Shown here one piece after another: positions 45,997-61,900 of a stretch of DNA of 64,000 nt. A program made the translations under genes and the position numbers. Origin of the DNA: Botryosphaeria dothidea (lineage: Eukaryota; Ascomycota; Dothideomycetes; Botryosphaeriales; Botryosphaeriaceae). Location: contig WWBZ02000015.1 in assembly GCA_011503125.2 (NCBI GenBank), forward strand, positions 1 to 64,000. Reading direction: 5' to 3'. Each line of letters opens with the position of its first letter. Positions within the stretch are counted from its first letter, which is position 1. The notes under the pieces are model-generated. The model saw only the letters and a program-made list of their open reading frames with translations, did no database searches and had not been told where the DNA came from.

Positions 45997-46135
45997 TGTT
46001 GGATATCACGTGTTTCAAGGTCTCCTTATATCACACCACATAGCTTAGCCACAATCACTCGTATAAGAGGCAAGCGGGTCACCCACCCTCTTCCTCTTCA
46101 TGCCATCAACAATGGATCATCTTTGTTCATCAACA
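45997..46135 (+). repeat. Copia-type LTR remnant 1
   Basis: Begins TGTTGGATATCACGTG and ends CATCAACA (139 bp), with a TATAAG box near 46,060. It is the partner of 48,496-48,635. The start resembles the sense-strand start of the Copia LTR in this window (TGTTGGAATTCACGTG) and the length is similar (137 bp there). No matching target duplication was found. It is joined to a 5'-truncated pogo transposase. It could instead be the 5' region of that transposon. Confidence 0.5.
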
Positions 46136-47440
46136 ATCCAACAGGTTCTTACTAAACGTATTCTCGACCTGGACTCGCGAGGATTTTCACCCCAACTTCG
46201 CGCTATTAAAGATATGGCGAATAAGCTACTTGCTAATCGCGCTAGAGGCACGGTTGGCGTTAAATGGGCCTCTAACTTTGTAAAACGGACTCCCGAGCTT
46301 AAAACACATCTAAACCGCACGTACGACTACCGGAGAGCAAAATGCGAAGACCTAGAGCTTCTTACGCAGTGGTTCAAGCTTGTCCAAAACACTATTACGA
46401 AGTACGGGATTATAAATATAGACATGTACAACTTCGACGAAGCTGGCTTCCTTATAGGCATGATTACAGCTAGAGTAGTTGTTATAGCATCCGAATGATG
46501 CGCCCGACCTAAATCTGTTCAACTAGGCAACCGCGAGTGGGTTACCGCGATCTAGGGAGTCAACGCTGAGGGCTGGGCGATTCCGCCGTTCGTGATCTTC
46601 AAGGGCCAGCACCACCTCTCTATTTGGTATAGCGACGACATTCCACGCAATTGGACTATCGCATTGAGCGAAAATGGCTGGAAAACAAACGAGCTTGGTC
46701 TGTAATGGCTGCAACACTTCGAAAGGCACACTAAGGAGCGCACAATTGGAGTATGGCGACTTCTGGTCCTTGATGGCCACGAGAGCCACCATTCGGCTGA
46801 ATTCGACGCATTTTGCCAGGAGCACAAAATAGTTACGCTTTGTATGCCTGCACATTCATCTTACCTTCTTCAGCCACTCGATGTAGGCTGTTTTACGCCT
46901 CTTAAAAAGGCGTATAGAAAGCAGGTTGAGGAGCTAATGCGATCCCACATTAACCACATCATAAAGCTTGAGTTTCTACCTACATTTAAAGCGGCATTCG
47001 AAGCTATGTTTACGAAGCAGAATATCGCAGGTGGATTTCAAGGCGCAGGATTGGTTCTACTCGATCTAGAAGCCGTGATTTCCAGGCTTAATGTTAAGCT
47101 TCGGACGCCGACACCGCCGCAGGCAGAGGCCGCAACTTGGGACCCTTAAACACCACACAACCCAGCTGAATTGGCATCTCAAACTGAGCTCATTAGGAGC
47201 CGGATCGTAAGGCATCAAGATAGCTCACCAACACTAATTAACAATGCGCTAAATCAGCTTGCCAAAGGGGCTCAGATGAGGGCCAGGATTTAATGGATAA
47301 AGCTGCTGTTAATTAGCAAATTTTGCAGGAAACACGTCAGAGTAGAGTGCGATTAGGTAGGACTGTAGTAAAGCAACAGCGATGTAGGAAATGCAGCGAG
47401 ACTGGACACAATTCTCGCACGTGTTAAAAACTTACAAGAG
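46136..47440 (+). pseudogene. pogo/Fot1-like (Tc1/mariner superfamily) transposase
   Basis: One plus frame runs from about 46,136 to past 47,149. It begins in the CENP-B/Tc5-like helix-turn-helix region (RILDLDSRGFSPQLRAI, KWASNFVKRTPELKT), so the first DNA-binding part is missing. The DDE_1 catalytic core follows. All three catalytic Asp are present and in frame: NFDEAGF (codon 46,436), LVLDGHESHH (46,772) and LQPLDVGCF (46,880), with 35 residues between the last two. Stops at 46,496 (TGA), about 46,550 (TAG) and about 46,701 (TAA) break it, as does a TAA at 47,147. Decayed coding continues to about 47,440. The ATG at 46,100 lies in the LTR-like sequence and is probably not the original start. 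Confidence 0.82.
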
Positions 47441-47567
47441 ATACTGTAGAGTAAGATGCATGTTATAGCTAGTCAATTCAATAAGGCGTTGTGGAGTTAT
47501 TTAGGATTGAAGTAGTTTAAGTCGTAAAAGTGATGCACTCGCTTATCCGATACGTTATATCTTAGGG

Positions 47568-47850
47568 CCTTTCGGTTAGGGAGTGACCACCCGCCCCGGC
47601 GGAGTGGTCGTCCCGACGAGTGTGAGTCACAGGAGGCAGCAAGTCGCCAGTGACTACTGAAATTGGAAAAAGGGCACAAGTATGTCCGGGGGCCCACCCC
47701 CGGCATGCGGCAGCGGAATTCATACAGCCCAATAGTCAGTTGCACCCGCTTCCCCGGCGGCGCAGCAGCAATAGATCGGCAAAATTCAACCCCGGTTCTG
47801 GAGGTCTCAGGCCTCTCCAGCGCGTAGAACCGGGCGAAAATTCGCCCGTC
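47568..47850 (+). ncRNA. Cluster of strong hairpins upstream of a hammerhead ribozyme
   Basis: Four strong inverted repeats lie in 270 bp. GACCAC+CCGCC / GGCGG+GTGGTC at 47,585-47,609 has a 2-nt loop. AGTCAC/GTGACT is at 47,625-47,655. CCGGGGG/CCCCCGG is at 47,686-47,703. CCCGGTTCT/AGAACCGGG (47,791-47,834) encloses GGAGG/CCTCTCC and abuts GGGCGAA/TTCGCCC (47,832-47,847), with which it competes for GGG. The region is GC-rich and keeps CpA/TpG, unlike RIPped neighbours. No reading frame explains it. I infer a structured RNA leader belonging with the ribozyme and the ORF at 48,044. Confidence 0.6.
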
Positions 47851-47875
47851 TATGACTATATTAACTAACCCTAAG

Positions 47876-47946
47876 CAAGTCCCTGATGAGTCTACAAGGA
47901 CGAAACCCCGCTGTCATACCTAGTATCAACACTGGGTCGGACATTG
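47876..47946 (+). ncRNA. Type I hammerhead self-cleaving ribozyme
   Basis: All core elements are present in order. Stem I 5' strand is CAAGTCC (47,876-47,882). Core CTGATGA is at 47,883-47,889. Stem II is GTC, loop TACAAG, GAC (47,890-47,901). Core GAA is at 47,902-47,904. Stem III starts with A15.1 as ACCC (47,905-47,908) and returns as GGGT (47,934-47,937), with an inner AUAC/GUAU hairpin. The cleavage nucleotide C17 is at 47,938 (GTC triplet). Stem I 3' strand is GGAC-a-TTG (47,939-47,946). Cleavage would fall between 47,938 and 47,939, leaving the 129-codon ORF 105 nt downstream. The open end at stem I makes it type I. Confidence 0.85.
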
Positions 47947-48043
47947 TTTGCTCATCAGTTCTTACCACTCCTCATCGCGTATTCCCAGATCTCATTAGCC
48001 CCTAATCAAACCAAGAGTTGTTGTTCCTTCTATATTTTCAGCC

Positions 48044-48433
48044 ATGGAAGCTCCGGCAGCTCACAGCCCCGATAACAATGGCGGCAACGACGGGGACAAT
48101 AGCAGTAGCTTTGTCTACGACAGCATCGCAGCCCAGTCTTTCGGCGATTATCTTGCCGATACGGACACAGATACAGAAAACTCCAATCTTCCATCATGTC
48201 GCCGTTGGGTGTGGTATTGCAAACTCCGCGCCTGTCCGAAATATTACACTGCCTGGTCCTGCAAGACCAATTTCTTGCTCCATTTATACGAGACGCCTGT
48301 GCATCGCGAAGATGCAGCCACAAGAACACGCGAAGGACGACGACAGTTGGCAAGGACATGGAGAGAGGAAACAGCGTACGACTTGAGCGAGCCGAAGAAG
48401 CAGCCGCCAAAAGACGGTGACGGTAAAGAATAA
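48044..48433 (+). CDS. 129-aa protein with C2H2-like zinc motif, downstream of ribozyme
   Basis: An intact ORF with a good start context (GCCATGG), about 105 nt after the predicted ribozyme cleavage site. A pyrimidine-rich TTCTATATTTTCAG directly before the start could be a 3' splice site. The protein has an acidic, Ser/Asn/Asp-rich N-terminus (residues 1-50), then a compact aromatic and Cys/His region at about 58-90 (WYCKLRACPKYYTAWSCK, then FLLHLYETPVH), giving C-x4-C-x15-H-x6-H, a C2H2-like finger. A charged tail follows (TREGRRQLARTWREETAYDL). I do not recognise the family and assign no function. Having no stops or RIP marks amid decayed repeats, it may be young or selected. It could be the sole product of a small ribozyme-bearing element, or a host gene. 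Confidence 0.6.
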   Translation: MEAPAAHSPDNNGGNDGDNSSSFVYDSIAAQSFGDYLADTDTDTENSNLPSCRRWVWYCKLRACPKYYTAWSCKTNFLLHLYETPVHREDAATRTREGRRQLARTWREETAYDLSEPKKQPPKDGDGKE

Positions 48434-48495: not shown

Positions 48496-48635
48496 TGTTG
48501 GATATCACTCGTTTCTCAGACAGTTCAAGTCGCACCATATAGCTTAGTCACAAGCACCTGTATAAGAGGCAAGCGGGTCACCTACCCTCTTCCTCTTCAT
48601 GCCAATCATCAATGGATCATCGTTGTTCATCAACA
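48496..48635 (+). repeat. Copia-type LTR remnant 2
   Basis: 140 bp starting TGTTGGATATCAC and ending CATCAACA, closely matching 45,997-46,135, including TATAAGAGGCAAGCGGGTCAC. The match fades within about 15 bp after the CAACA end. No target duplication is visible. Confidence 0.5.
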
Positions 48636-48718
48636 TACCAACATTTTTCAATGTTACACAAAGCAACGAACCTCAAACACTATATGTCAGACTATTTTAC
48701 TGCCTCAATCATGCCCAA

Positions 48719-49500: not shown

Positions 49501-50329
49501 GGAGATGCGAGGAACCGTGAATGGTAGGTTTTTATGATAAGAATTAGATAGGAAGCGGAGGATCTCATTTGTCCAGCGAAAAGGTGGCTACTCCACCCGT
49601 TAATAAGCCCCATGGGAGGCAAGACTGGCTATAAAGCCAGTACAGATAGACGTTAATGCAACAATAAATCACCTGTCCCTCAAGAGACAGGCAGAATCTA
49701 CTCTCTTTTCTAACCTCACAACTCCTCACTCTCAAATCCAACAGTTCATATACATGATTGAGAGTGTAGCATAACCGAGGATATTAATTATCCGAGTGTA
49801 AAAGCCGACGAAGGGCTGGGTATCAATGAGTGGTGTTTCCATATTTTGGTGAATGATAGAAGATCCGAGATAACTAAGATGCCTGAGGCAATAAGGTAAT
49901 ATAGTCTGACAAAAGACTTAATAGTCAGTCCGCTGTATTTAGCGGAATAATACGTGTCGAACGGCGCGAGAAAGAATACACAGCTTGTTTTATTATCATT
50001 GCTACTGAGGTCTGCTATTGTCAAACGGCGCGAGAAAGAATACACCGCTTGTTTTCTCATTGTTGCTACTGAGGCCTGCTATATACGTGTAATAATCGGA
50101 TTTACGGAAATACGCATAACTGGGGTAAATGAGGTGTGTGGGGATAGGTGTATGGTGCGGCAAAAAATAAAGAAAGAACGCGTGTATAAGCAAAAGCAAA
50201 CAAAACACGTGATTACGGGCCAATGTGGTTGACACGTAGTAAACGTAACTTTAGAGCTCTCTACGTATTTATTATTATTACACGTATACGTGTAAGTTTG
50301 TCTTTCTTATATCGATCCCGCGTCGAGCC
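49501..50329. other. Gene-free stretch with a 64-bp tandem duplication
   Basis: After the LINE 3' UTR no coding sequence is seen. A unit beginning ACGGCGCGAGAAAGAATACAC occurs at 49,961 and again at 50,025 (period 64 bp, a few differences). A CCGC-TGTATTTA-GCGG hairpin lies just before it. ATAACCGAGGATAT at about 49,772 recalls 58,374-58,420 and may be old LTR material. Confidence 0.5.
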
Positions 50330-50733: not shown

Positions 50734-52230
50734 ATGAACATACCAAAAATCCGACCTCAAGCTACGGCTACGGAAGAAACCCCTAGGGGCTCTTCCAGGC
50801 CTCAAAACCCTAGCAACACCCTTCCCAGCAGCTGCAGCAACGTGGTGGTTGGAATTGAGACTATGGAAAGGGCTGAACAACCCCTCCCAGTACCCACCTC
50901 TACCCGCCCCCAGCAGACACCTAAAAGCCTGCAGCATGGCCAAATCAGCGTAGAATATGTCCAGAGAGCTGCCACAACAGCAGACGCCATCCTACAAGCC
51001 CTCCAGACAATCGCTGGTAGACCTTCAGCCCTCAATAGCCAGATAAAAAATTTTCTCGGCGCCGCCAAGGAAATCTTCCAGGACCACATTACCCTCCGCC
51101 AGGAGGCAGCAGCCAAGGAACCAAACCTGAAGGATATCCTAAGGGAAGTCAAGCAGGTCCACAAAACAGTCAGCCGTATCCAGGCAGCGCCTACACCAAC
51201 TAGCCTAAGCTGGGCATACATCGCAGCCCAAACAGCCCCAAAGCCTCCCACCCCGCCCACCACCACAGAAATCACCCTCCACCTTCCAGATGAAGCAAAT
51301 AGACAGGAAGTAGCAAATCTCCCAAACGAAGCCATCATTCAAAAGATCCAGGCAGGAAAAGGCCTAGCCTGTAAAAGGGTACTCGCTGCTAGAAAACTCC
51401 CTAGTGGGGATATCAGGATCTTTGTTCCGGACACACAAACAAGGACAGCCCTTCTCCAGGACCAGGAGTGGACCACTGGACTCGGAAACGAGGTCCGCCC
51501 AAATCAACAACTATACTCAGTACTAGTCCACAACGTCCCTGTCAAGGGAATTAACACCACGGATCCCCAGGCCACCAAGGCCCTACAGGAGCAAAACCTG
51601 GTCTTACATCCAGGACTGCATATTAGTAAGCTAGCCTGGCTGAAGAAGAAGCTCCCAGAAGGGAAAACACACTCCGCAATCATCCTCAGTACCATAGACC
51701 CTGAGATAGCCAACCAGATTATAGCTAAAGGACTAATCTGCAACTTTGCCCTACACACAGCAGAGTACTATAGTGCGAACTTTACAGTAACCCAATGCTT
51801 CAAGTGCCAGGCATATGGCCACATTGCCACCCACTGTAGGAAAGAGCAAAAGTGCGGTCAGTGTGCAGGCAGCCACGATACAAGAGAGTGCGGAAAGGAG
51901 AAAACGCAGTGTGTAAACTGCTCCCAAAAACATACAGCCTGGAGTAACCTATGCTCAGCGCGCAAGGCCCACCAGGCTAGAGCAACCCAAGCTCGACTGG
52001 CCGCGCCAGGAAACTACAGGGAACAACCTCAAGCAGCCCAAAAGCCAACACAGAATGGATGGACCCTGGTAGGGTCCCGGAAGAGAATAAGGGAAGAGGA
52101 ACCTAGGAGAAGAAAGCCAGGGCTTAATAGCTCCCAACACGCAGCCGAGGTTGAGAACCAGGAAGACTCCCAGACACAGGCGGAAATACCTCCTACCCTA
52201 CAAGCAGACATAGAGATGGAAGGAAACTAA
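50734..52230 (+). CDS. LINE ORF1 protein (intact, Tad-like), three zinc knuckles
   Basis: 498 codons from a real ATG to TAA, uninterrupted. The N-terminal third is Ser/Pro/Gln-rich, followed by a helical region (NSQIKNFLGAAKEIFQ, LKDILREVKQVHKTVSRIQ), a middle domain including KTHSAIILSTIDPEIANQI, and three CCHC knuckles at about residues 355-410: CFKCQAYGHIATHC, CGQCAGSHDTREC and CVNCSQKHTAWSNLC. The tail is basic (GSRKRIREEEPRRRKP). Proteins of this kind coat LINE RNA and act as chaperones during target-primed reverse transcription. Its stop overlaps the ORF2 start (TAATG, 52,228-52,232). It is the only complete transposon ORF in the window. The element lacks most of ORF2, so it is not autonomous. 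Confidence 0.9.
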   Translation: MNIPKIRPQATATEETPRGSSRPQNPSNTLPSSCSNVVVGIETMERAEQPLPVPTSTRPQQTPKSLQHGQISVEYVQRAATTADAILQALQTIAGRPSALNSQIKNFLGAAKEIFQDHITLRQEAAAKEPNLKDILREVKQVHKTVSRIQAAPTPTSLSWAYIAAQTAPKPPTPPTTTEITLHLPDEANRQEVANLPNEAIIQKIQAGKGLACKRVLAARKLPSGDIRIFVPDTQTRTALLQDQEWTTGLGNEVRPNQQLYSVLVHNVPVKGINTTDPQATKALQEQNLVLHPGLHISKLAWLKKKLPEGKTHSAIILSTIDPEIANQIIAKGLICNFALHTAEYYSANFTVTQCFKCQAYGHIATHCRKEQKCGQCAGSHDTRECGKEKTQCVNCSQKHTAWSNLCSARKAHQARATQARLAAPGNYREQPQAAQKPTQNGWTLVGSRKRIREEEPRRRKPGLNSSQHAAEVENQEDSQTQAEIPPTLQADIEMEGN

Positions 52231-53108
52231 TGATAAACACAAGCTACCTCTCGATTATACAGTACAACGTAAATAAAAGTGCGAAGGGGGTAATGCTCCC
52301 ACTCTTTCAGGATATCAGTCCGACGGCCCACCACATCCTCGCAATCCAGGAGCCATGGAGGAACCCAAGGACAAAAACAACAGTAAAACACCCGGCCTAC
52401 CACACAGTCTTCCCCCAGGAAGGAATAGCGAGGACCTGCTTCTTCGTAAGCAAGGCCATTGCCGTAGAATCTTGGCAGACGACAATCCACTCTCCAGACC
52501 TTATTACCCTCTCCCTTACCACTGCAACCAACGTTATCCACATCCATAACTACTACAACCCTCCCTCTGCCCACACAAGCACGGAACTAGGGACCCTATC
52601 TATTCTCCCAAGAGCCCTTGCCATGCAGGGGCAACATATCCTTCTCGGGGACTTTAACCTCCATCACCCCCTCTGGGGAGGTATTACCTCCCCTACACAC
52701 CATACTCTTGCGAATCACCTAATCGAAACTGCAACTGCAGCAAACCTAAACCTAGCCCTCCCAAGAGGCACTATTACCAGAAGAAGAGGTAATAGTAAAA
52801 GTACTCTAGATCTTATCTTCACTTCCCAGTGGATAGAGGAAAGAATTATAAACTGTGGAGTTAGCTATGAGCTAGAGTCATCATCTGATCACCTACCTAT
52901 CCTCACAACATTCGACGTCACCCCAATACCTATACTCCCTCAACCCCCAAGACCCCAATGGAAAAAAGCGGACTGGAAGAAGGTAAACACAACACTCCAG
53001 ATGAAGCTTAGGAGCATCAGAACAAGCCAACCAAGCACTAAGGTAGAGCTAGACGCCGCTGTCGAGCAGATCCAGAAGGCCATTCAGGACACCATCCAGG
53101 AAACCATC
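52230..53108 (+). pseudogene. LINE ORF2, endonuclease domain only, cut by Copia LTR
   Basis: Starts at the ATG overlapping the ORF1 stop. It codes for a complete AP-like endonuclease with its key residues: QYNVNKS, IQEPWRNP, LLGDFNLHHPLW, STLDLIFTSQW and ESSSDHLPIL. It ends at AIQDTIQETI, where the Copia LTR begins (53,109). The homologous frame at 33,310 (minus) continues from the same point into PAARPSPW and RT. RT and everything downstream are absent on the far side of the Copia element. The endonuclease would nick target DNA to prime reverse transcription. Confidence 0.88.
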
Positions 53109-53245
53109 TGTTGAAAATTGACGCGGTGCAGAATGTAGTACGATTCTTGGCATGAGTTGGTGAGGGGGGCAGGAGAGGTGCCCGACTTATACCCAACCAT
53201 GACGCTATACCTAATGTAGTATCTAGGTACACGTGAATTCCAACA
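53109..53245 (-). repeat. Copia 3' LTR
   Basis: 137 bp, TG...CA, same length and sequence family as 58,196-58,332 with no visible length change. The purine-rich tract lies just inside. Confidence 0.92.
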
Positions 53246-58332: not shown

Positions 58333-58919
58333 ATAGGTAAATAAGCGTGTCTTAAATACATGAATCTGAAGTGATATAACCGAGGAATTGTCAGTACCCG
58401 AGGATATGATATCCGGAGGTGTTGGGCATGAAGATGAAAAAGTGATGCACTCCGTGTTCCCGGTGGAATCTTCGAGATATTGTGGTGGAGAAGTGAAGAT
58501 CATTGCCTGAAAGAATCTTGTGTTCTGAGTATCACGGGGATTCTAGTTGACACTTACTTTTCGTGATTGGCAGGGTTATGGTATCTGGATAGGACAGCGA
58601 CTCCATGGAAGATTTTATTGGCTTACCAGCAGATGTAATGATGTAAGAGGCGCCACTATCCGTCTTTCCAAGCCACTGCTTATTGTTACACAAAACAAAA
58701 ATGCCTCAGTGCGCCGGAAAATGTTTCTTGTGTACAAGGAGCAGGTAAAGACAAAACCGAGAACTTTCCAATTTGGAGCGGGCCAACTCAATTCAACTCT
58801 TCTAAATCCACTCCATCCTTGCAACGACTTTATGCTCTGTTTTTCCCCGTTAGTAAACTCCATTTGCCCTACTGCGGACCCAGACAGTGCGGAAGATCAC
58901 AGATATTCTTCTCTCTATT
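58333..58919. other. Upstream region of the DUF6536 gene
   Basis: No confident coding sequence. A CT-rich stretch (TTCTTCTCTCTATT) lies directly before the gene's ATG, as is common in fungal core promoters. The frame 58,547-58,927 shows no domain and overlaps the start. AAAAGTGATGCACTC at about 58,436 is shared with 47,525. Confidence 0.5.
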
Positions 58920-61900
58920 ATGCCTGAACTGAGCTCTTATGAGAGAACATCACAGCAAAAACTTATCATCGAGAACTATGCAGCATTGCTGTATGAAGAA
59001 CTCATAGGTGGCAAGAGCTACTTACTCGCATCGGTCTCTGAAGACACCTTTAAGCTATCGCTTCAGCAGCACCTACTTGGTTTTTTCAACGCCATAGAAC
59101 CAGAATTAGACCAAGATCCAGCATCTCAGACAGCTTTGGTGGGATTGCAATGCGCGCGGGATCATTTGGGAGAGATCTCTGAGCGCTTCATTGAGATGAC
59201 CAAGTCTTGGATAAGCGGTCCTTGCAACACAACGAACCGTGGAACAAATCTGTCACGGCACCAGGATGCTACCAATGGCGAGCAACATGACGCACAATCT
59301 GCTAAAGACAGACGTTCCTCACTGGATATTCGTGTCGAAAAGAATCCCAGGGCCTCCTCCATGGATCAAAGCCAGCATGATAAGCCGTCTGCTTGTTTCG
59401 AAGAGGCAATGCTTTCAACTGGGGTGCCAAAAGATGAGTTCAGCCTGTGCCGGATTGGATCGAAGGACCACCACATTGTCGGTCATCCCGCTTTCTCAGA
59501 CCTCATGATGGCTCTCAATCGCTTGGCTTTTGGGCCCGCTTATACAGGTCATCAGAGCTTACATCCAAGTGGGGCAAAAGATAACGGCGGGGTCCCCGAG
59601 CGCTTCGCGACGATTGAGCGATTTAAACCTTGGTTTCCGCAGTGCGACCCTAACCACCCTCGCGCATCGACATGGTCCGTCCGGCTCTCGAAACAAACTA
59701 CTGCGCTCTCAATACACGTCGTCGTTTCCGCGGCTGTTCTGCTCTTTAACGTCGTAGTAACCGCCATTGCACTATCAAAATATGGGTGGAACACGGGTGT
59801 CGGTGTAGCCTACGAGGGGGACTGTGAGCAGAGCAATCGATACAACACCGGACTCCATCTTGTTATCAATATTCTCTCCACCGTCCTTCTGAGTGCTAGC
59901 AATTACTGCGCTCAAATTTTGATTGCACCATCCCGGAACGAGATCGATAAAGCCCACTCCCAAGGGATATGGCTGGATATTGGAGTACAGAGCCTGAGAA
60001 ACTTAACCAACATCAGGGTCCAGAGGCGCTTCGTCTGGGGTGTCTTAATGTCTAGCTCTATTATTCTTCATCTCTTGTAGGTATTACGTTTATTGAACCC
60101 AGAAGACGACATCATATACATACTCACTGCTTTTATTCTTAGCTGGAACTCGTCTCTTTACGGTTCAACCCCGATATTCGTCTACAACACAGTGGTGGCG
60201 ACTTCTGACTTTCGAACGGACCCTGCACCCTGGACATATAATATAAGCGGTCTGGAAAGCTTCAAAAGAAATGCAAATAACCTGGAAAGGCTCGACAACC
60301 TCGCCTGTATTGAAAGATACATTCAACCGTTCAGCAGTCCACGCGATGTTATCGTGGTCACAAATACGACGAGGAAATCTGCTCTATTCGATACAAATTC
60401 GTCTCTGATTGTCGCTTTCCACAACCCAGCAAGTGGGGAGCGATGGTTCGCTGGGCCTAAGTGGATTTGCTCTGGACTCTATTTCGATGTGAATGATTCT
60501 GCACACGACTGCAATCTTGACTTCATGAAGCCTCATGCTCAGGATTGGCGAATCCATACAGACGAAATTCCATTACCGGTCCAGGTAGACTACTGCTTGA
60601 GCGCGGGGGTTGCAGCAACAAGAACATGCCAAGTCAGATACAGCCTCACTCTCTTCCTCCTCATATGCTGCCTCAATCTTTGCAAGTGCATTTGCATTAT
60701 TTACACAAGGGTTAGTCACACAGAAAAGAGACTTGTGACAATTGGGGATGCTATTGCAAGTTTCTTCCAGGTGCCGGACGAGACGACAGCGGGGCACTGC
60801 CTTGCGAATATGGAAACTATGACACGACTCATGTTTCACGGAATTGAATCCGCAGACAACAAAGGAAAAATACAGCGCATCAAGATTTCCGCACAGAGGA
60901 ATGTTTATCTAGCAACCGGATACTTGATGTTCAAGAAGAAAGGCCCAGAAGATAGGATCTGGCCATCTGCACCGAATATACGAGAACATGTCAAAGACAG
61001 CCGTCTATTTGTAGCTGTTTCTCGACGTCGCTGGCTCTGGACTGTTGGGTCGTAAGAGCTCCCAAGTATTCCTAACACCATTGTGTGCTCCAACGCTTAC
61101 TTGGTTCCAGCTGCATTATAACGATGGTGGTAATCACGTGCCTCTTAAGCATAACATTCCAGGCACAGAGTATCCGCGGCCTCTCAACCTCAATCAGCGC
61201 TCTTTGGCGGCGGGGGCTCGGGCAGCCTCTGGCATCCAACATCGTCAAGCCCTTCGAAGCAACATTCAACTTTTACGAAGCTGTCACTTTTGCCAACATG
61301 TTTCAGCTGCTTTTCAGCTTCCTATATCTCCTCTATAACCGTCTTCTCACAACGTTGCTGATAACATTGGAGTGGTCAGGGTTTGGTTCTGAGCGGAAGG
61401 CACTACGCGTCTCCTCACCAGAAGGCGTTCAACGATCCTCCTATTTTTTGAGCCTCCCTTACAAATTCGGATTACCATTGGTAGTTGCAAGCTCTGTCGT
61501 GCACTGGTTGATCTCACAGAGCATTTTTCTCATTGCGACGATTGGGATTGATTCCGATGGCAATGAAGCCAAGGAATACAATGGCTTCGTGATTGGTTAC
61601 TCCAGCATCGGAATCATCCTCTCACTGATCGTCGCCCTCTGCATGATCTTGGCGCTCGGTGGAGTCGGATTAATGAAGTACCCGGGCGACCATGACGGTG
61701 GCACGCAAGAGCAAGACCATACTTCAGGTGTATTTGACATGCTACGAAGGTTTTGGACACATCGGGCGCGCGCATCTCCCTCCATGGATCCCAAACGTAC
61801 CCTTCAGATCAGCAAGGAGCGGTGGGCGCCACCAATGACTTCTACGTGCAGCGCAGCAATAAGTTCAGCCTGCCATCGGCCTACTGAAGATGAGCATGCA

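Follow-up and report, generated by a model that had tools for sequence, protein, structure and literature searches.

The most likely reading of positions 47872-47950 on the plus strand of the window (the whole 64,000-nucleotide stretch of DNA analysed here), which we hold with moderate confidence, is a type I hammerhead ribozyme (HHR) that is genuine, occurs in one copy and would lie in the leader of an RNA running into an open reading frame (ORF) of 129 amino acids. All letters of the type I consensus and the three stems are present, and chance is an unlikely source of the motif. The case for the predicted processing by self-cleavage is weakened by a competing hairpin and by the absence of copies, and is modestly helped by a well-folded RNA upstream and an unstructured leader downstream.

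Results

A hammerhead core with three stems

The elements of the candidate, as read from the sequence and the pair list, are the following.

47872-47882, plus strand: 5' strand of stem I, in which GUCC (47879-47882) adjoins the core, then A, A, C, G, A, A and U outward
47883-47889, plus strand: catalytic core C3 to A9, CUGAUGA
47890-47901, plus strand: stem II, GUCU/GGAC with a last pair U-G, loop ACAA (47894-47897)
47902-47904, plus strand: G12, A13 and A14
47905-47937, plus strand: stem III, ACCC (47905-47908)/GGGU (47934-47937), UGU (47912-47914)/ACA (47929-47931) and AUAC (47916-47919)/GUAU (47923-47926), loop CUA
47938, plus strand: C17, with predicted cleavage between 47938 and 47939
47939-47950, plus strand: 3' strand of stem I, GGAC, bulged A47943, UUG, U, U, U and G
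47951-47958, plus strand: anti-core arm CUCAUCAG, the exact complement of CUGAUGAG (47883-47890), with which it can form a competing hairpin

The letters that define membership of the class in the consensus given in the methods of PMC3088659 (C3 U4 G5 A6 N7 G8 A9, G12 A13 A14, the pair A15.1-U16.1 and H17) are all found. C17 lies within a GUC cleavage triplet, and the cleavage position is predicted from the sequence and from established hammerhead chemistry. The pairs that adjoin the core are C47882-G47939 in stem I, G47890-C47901 in stem II and A47905-U47937 (A15.1-U16.1) in stem III. Loops close stems II and III while stem I is open, which corresponds to the type I layout. Stem II is formed by GUC/GAC and can reach 4 bp with a U-G pair (47890-47893/47898-47901). 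In stem I, GUCC/GGAC and the bulged A47943 are followed by CAA/UUG and by possible G-U, A-U, A-U and U-G pairs that extend to 47872/47950, that is, seven further pairs beyond the bulge, including two G-U. A first, sequence-only reading of this DNA had placed every invariant position with the right letters and coordinates. Its stems also stand as it gave them, but its list was incomplete, as stem I can be extended by four pairs and UGU/ACA adds a helix to stem III. No standard contact between loops I and II was recognised by eye, the features seen being the one-base bulge in stem I and the loop ACAA.

Chance expectation of the motif

An exact core with Watson-Crick stems of at least 4, 3 and 4 bp, thresholds that equal the stem lengths observed at the locus, is expected 0.07 times in the 51.7 Mb genome and 9e-5 times in 64 kb (67 occurrences among 30.9 million simulated cores). 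When the natural preferences CTGATGAG and CGAAAC are fixed, the expectation becomes 0.0005 per genome, an approximation that assumes 1/16 for two further stem II pairs, and 0.005 with G-U pairs. The full signature of core plus stem II is expected 2.4e-6 times per genome, for a string that was taken from the locus after it had been seen and to which the RF00008 consensus is close. A more stringent descriptor, adapted to the locus, had 0 matches in 46.4 million trials. A loose descriptor with G-U pairs is expected about 2.8 times per genome (2611 matches in 30.9 million core placements). The bare-core patterns occur at chance level: CTGATGAGN{3,30}CGAAAC is present 15 times in the genome versus 13 expected, and CTGANGAGN{3,25}CGAAA 227 times versus 208, 30 of these 227 having been retrieved from 100 listed. 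Applied to the window and to 75 loci of the same genome, the descriptor found the candidate site only.

The energy of the hammerhead fold is ordinary, since 333-347 of the 2611 chance descriptor matches are at least as low (the counts differ by rounding at the threshold). Folding of the 71 nt from 47876 to 47946 gave a z of -1.34, and that of 47868-47955 a z of -1.24. The initial claim that chance is unlikely is thus borne out by sequence plus stems but not by stability alone.

The core and stem II recur beside predicted hammerhead stems elsewhere

Viral contigs and prokaryote genomes yielded at least 120 and at least 118 stretches, respectively, with the signature CTGATGAGTC-N(3-12)-GGACGAAAC. 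As controls, the backward pattern gave 0 and another stem II sequence of equal length gave 19, counted by sequence alone. Among the matches listed, 256 instances corresponded to 235 distinct ones, and 197 of the 235 carried hammerhead stems I and III, versus about 1.4% with shuffled flanks. Type I stems were found in 104 of these listed instances, type III stems in 95 and neither in 38; in the flank-shuffled controls, type I and type III stems appeared in 0.85% and 0.51% of 4700. Judged by stems that can be predicted around it, the signature CTGATGAGTC-N-GGACGAAAC marks putative HHRs elsewhere. These occurrences and the chance estimates together support the type I identity that had been proposed from sequence and secondary structure.

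The signature frame has a length of 24 nt, as in the window, at 124 of the 256 listed sites; the window's exact 24-mer was not found in the viral contigs. Among the 40 commonest loops, the first letter is usually C, which gives a fourth C-G pair, and T, as here, is rare (TGTAA 4 and TAAAA 3 of 256). Two of the 104 sites with type I stems had flanks too short for use, which left 102 comparison sites, themselves predicted hammerheads. Proximal stem I measures 6 bp in 55 of them, 5 bp in 21 and 4 bp in 15; the candidate has 4 bp before the bulge, where 6 is the commonest length. We also noticed five and four signature sites in a row in contigs L108 and L225, respectively; prophage regions are so described in PMC3088659.

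Covariance models

No Rfam family reaches its gathering score in the window. The covariance check proposed with the sequence-only reading fails: the best overlapping match by bits, RF03152, scores 16.6 bits at the motif (E 3.4, cut-off 56.3), and RF00008 scores 15.4 bits (E 1.9, cut-off 48.5). How weak these hammerhead matches are is shown by the unrelated bacterial family porB, which has a better E value (0.54) beside the motif. In genome-wide searches, RF00163 matched two other places (18.3 and 16.9 bits), the candidate locus being absent from its matches, and RF03152 gave no matches.

As a yardstick, 15 signature loci hand-picked for short length rather than taken at random were scored in the same way. 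Fourteen of the 15 miss the Rfam cut-off; 13 give an HHR match at the signature site, with 20.3-47.0 bits, and the candidate locus scores below all 13. In an overlapping set of 14 signature loci, also hand-picked, one hammerhead passed the cut-off. Failure in Rfam is therefore not decisive, because 14 of 15 signature sites tested fail as well. The gathering cut-off is a database threshold and not a defining property of HHRs, and Rfam was rejected as a decisive judge, the signature loci lying mostly below its cut-off. As the cut-offs passed over nearly all signature sites in these small samples (15 and 14 loci), annotations may undercount hammerheads.

A model of our own was built from 41 of the 102 type I signature sites (stem I of at least 5 bp, stem III span of at most 20, fold share above 0.05, near-identical sites removed). 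The candidate is its only match in the window, with 22.3 bits and an E value of 3.6e-4, or about 0.3 when scaled to the genome. The best parse misses the true stems I and III, and the score therefore comes mostly from the core and stem II. The same model gave 30 matches of 11.1-59.4 bits in 19 held-out loci with long-stem-III type I sites, and two matches (15.9 and 12.2 bits) in a further 44 core-like loci from the candidate's genome, some of which overlap.

A downstream arm predicted to compete with the core

All fold shares come from an energy model that leaves out tertiary contacts and co-transcriptional order. In an 80-nt segment (to 47950/47951), the HHR fold has a share of 0.0116 and lies 1.7 kcal/mol above the segment's minimum. 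Nine of the 102 type I signature sites are at or below this share, and 0.38% of the 2611 chance matches reach it. The share is 3e-4 in the 71 nt from 47876 to 47946 and 2.6e-8 with the natural 3' flank to 47970, which is below 101 of the 102 comparison sites. In a transcript that reaches 47958, it falls to 1.5e-9 - 6.2e-8, depending on the 5' start used, because CUCAUCAG (47951-47958) pairs with CUGAUGAG (47883-47890). The resulting CUGAUGAG/CUCAUCAG hairpin is the minimum-energy fold (-29 kcal/mol, z -3.76). The arm may nevertheless be due to chance, as random 20-nt 3' flanks were equally disruptive in 23 of 3000 cases and 20-mers taken from the window in 36 of 3000. The anti-core 8-mer is absent from the 80 nt upstream and 90 nt downstream of all 235 listed signature sites.

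A structured region upstream and an open frame downstream

The candidate is flanked by the following features.

47560-47876, plus strand: self-structured RNA region, closed by CUUAGGG (47561-47567)/CCCUAAG (47869-47875); z -4.57 on the plus and -1.96 on the minus strand, with -131.6 and -127.3 kcal/mol
48044-48433, plus strand: single-copy 129-aa ORF, an open frame with start context GCCATGG

The closing helix of the upstream region ends directly before stem I. When the region is taken from 47560 to 47945 (386 nt), with edges chosen after the folds and the scan had been seen, z is -4.75 on the plus and -1.06 on the minus strand, for nearly equal energies of -151.0 and -147.9 kcal/mol. Among 111 sliding plus-strand windows between 42 and 64 kb, the lowest z (-3.78) partly overlaps this stretch and the next (-3.64) lies elsewhere, at 49605; the best-placed 120-nt windows of the region come 11th and 14th out of 364. 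In 47560-47945, all Rfam families stay below their cut-offs. A scan for bacterial promoters and terminators gave 1 and 2 sites, versus shuffle means of 0.8 and 1.1. A telomerase RNA had been considered on account of the template-like CTAACCCTAA before the motif and was rejected: TAACCCTAA occurs 3 times outside the terminal array versus about 1.4 expected, and no Rfam telomerase match was obtained.

The RNA after the predicted cut is unstructured and unusually open (z +1.99). The 'intact small ORF' of the sequence-only reading is confirmed as an open frame, which begins 105 nt past the predicted cut, but belongs to no recognised family and is best called a putative gene. Searches of its 129 residues returned no Pfam family, no relative in the genome and, in the PDB, only 3nrw (E 0.57). 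An AlphaFold model made without an alignment had a pLDDT of 43.8 and was not used.

Genomic surroundings

(AACCCT)n occupies positions 1-148 of the window, and the candidate therefore lies 47.9 kb from the chromosome end. The first 2410 positions hold this telomere repeat array and, after it, a long degenerate 23-bp tandem array. Several mobile-element remnants and one further ORF were recognised around the candidate.

45997-46143 and 48496-48643: LTR-like repeat TGTTGG...CCAACA, 147-148 bp, two copies 84% alike
46144-47555: broken Fot1-like transposon (Tc1-mariner/pogo type), its 5' part missing and an LTR-like repeat abutting the break
50734-53114: LINE-type ORFs (a 498-aa ORF and an endonuclease ORF), many genome copies with 65-94% identity
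54327-56372, minus strand: Copia-type remnant with RVT_2 and SH3_retrovirus domains
58887-60080, plus strand: ORF that matches DUF6536 strongly (E 1.7e-46)

The DNA-binding domain of the Fot1-like transposon matches HTH_Tnp_Tc5. Comparison with locus L039, which holds a relative with 45-bp terminal inverted repeats, puts the end of the transposon's 3' terminal repeat, with a TA target site, at about 47555. The right LTR-like copy (148 bp) has TTTTT on both sides and is found near full length in at least 33 other places in the genome.

The stretch 47560-48433 itself was single copy in genome searches, which found no second copy of the hammerhead. An origin from a mobile element was rejected, the DNA around the motif being unique in the genome and the longest paralogous transposon match stopping at 47523. 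A retrozyme or LTR element finds no support either, as the two LTR-like repeats are without a hammerhead and the descriptor gave no second site in the window and the 75 loci. The second ribozyme expected of a viroid-like or ambivirus RNA copy was not found on either strand between 44 and 52 kb with one core mismatch allowed. The only similar DNA in phage records was a 36-base piece in two records of one Cronobacter phage (E 4), and the searched ORFs included no recognisable Penelope element.

Discussion

If the motif is a working hammerhead, the nascent RNA would fold stems I to III and cut itself between C47938 and G47939. The cut would leave a structured 5' fragment ending in a 2',3'-cyclic phosphate and, downstream, an uncapped RNA with a 5'-OH and the 105-nt unstructured leader. 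Cleavage would then reduce or redirect ORF expression, or set the structured upstream RNA free. Positions 47951-47958, once transcribed, could pair with the core and keep uncut molecules locked, which would confine cleavage to a short co-transcriptional window. As a long shot, the whole could be imagined as a timed self-cleaving switch in a fungal gene leader, in which a strongly structured RNA domain is bordered on its 3' side by the hammerhead and, 12 nt past the cut, an anti-hammerhead arm closes the cutting window when transcribed, with transcription speed or a ligand deciding whether the ORF mRNA keeps its cap.

Next after the genuine hammerhead ranks a chance resemblance, which we consider possible on a tentative footing. 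Here intergenic DNA would merely meet the descriptor, and its RNA, if made, would fold as the CUGAUGAG/CUCAUCAG hairpin, which is indeed the minimum-energy fold. The chance-level abundance of the bare-core patterns, the several matches per genome expected of the descriptor that allows G-U pairs, the low Rfam scores and a hammerhead energy that is ordinary among chance matches all fit such an origin; moreover, the locus was drawn from an unstated number of first-stage windows. What speaks for a true ribozyme is the far lower expectation once Watson-Crick stems and natural preferences are combined, the presence of the natural signature as well, and a fold share that exceeds that of 99.6% of the chance matches.

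Two further explanations keep the ribozyme but change its fate. Rather unlikely, though compatible with the favoured reading, since it posits the same ribozyme and a different product, is a structured non-coding RNA gene at 47560-47945 whose 3' end would be cut by the hammerhead, the ORF being incidental. The strand difference in z, the overlap with the lowest sliding window and the helix that ends at stem I agree with it. Against these stand edges chosen after the scan, a second window almost as low elsewhere, the modest ranks of the 120-nt windows, the nearly equal minus-strand energy and the lack of a fitting Rfam family; the left edge also coincides with the end of the Fot1-like transposon, which may mean that the true 5' end is lost. 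Slightly less probable still is a decayed or trapped hammerhead, a true one by origin (a mobile element, or DNA copied from a viroid-like RNA) and inactive through the anti-core arm and lost loop contacts. An exact core and natural stem II combined with a short proximal stem I and low model scores, an anti-core 8-mer foreign to the flanks of the listed signature sites and a position between transposon remnants would be expected of it. Yet decay would presumably have hit some of the invariant letters, all of which are intact, no second copy or second ribozyme accompanies the candidate, and random flanks can be as disruptive, so the arm may be chance.

Fungal hammerheads are already known from Yarrowia lipolytica (PMC3088659), and the candidate would add a member. 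The Yarrowia type I hammerheads are tied to interspersed repeats and occur in several copies (Perreault et al. 2011, PMC3088659); with a 4-bp descriptor, the matches in the Yarrowia family rose from 1 to 15 once helix bulges were allowed (RNArobo paper, PMC4870747). The candidate resembles them in its fungal genome, type I layout, exact core and bulged helix, here in stem I, and differs in being single copy before an ORF, while theirs are multicopy in repeats. The genome-encoded fungal hammerheads treated in PMC3088659 and PMC4870747 are those of Yarrowia, in repeats, from which a lone one before an ORF differs; if true, it would allow a direct test of a role for self-cleavage in the expression of fungal host genes. 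HDV-type ribozymes are reported in a comparative fungal RNA screen (PMC5640933), whose main text contains no word beginning 'hammerhead'. With the predicted viral and bacterial hammerheads that have a GUC..GGAC stem II, the candidate shares the identical CTGATGAGTC...GGACGAAAC frame and its 24-nt length, whereas stem III spans 14-20 nt in 79 of the 102 comparison sites and proximal stem I has 5-6 bp in most of the 102, against a 33-nt stem III and 4 bp plus a bulge here.

Penelope hammerheads have a minimal stem III. The core layout of the candidate is that of the RAGATH-1 (RF03152) and Penelope-type minimal hammerheads, from which it differs in its long stem III and in falling far below the RF03152 cut-off; Penelope hammerheads are called minimal in PMC6155905. 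The vertebrate intronic hammerheads RECK and CTCL are conserved across many species (PMC3088659, PMC6155905), and the candidate would share with them a type I hammerhead associated with a gene. Inspection by eye suggested a possible intron in the 5'-UTR on the plus strand at 47680-48041, with GTATGT at 47680, CTAAT at about 48002 and TTTTCAG ending at 48041, which would enclose the candidate.
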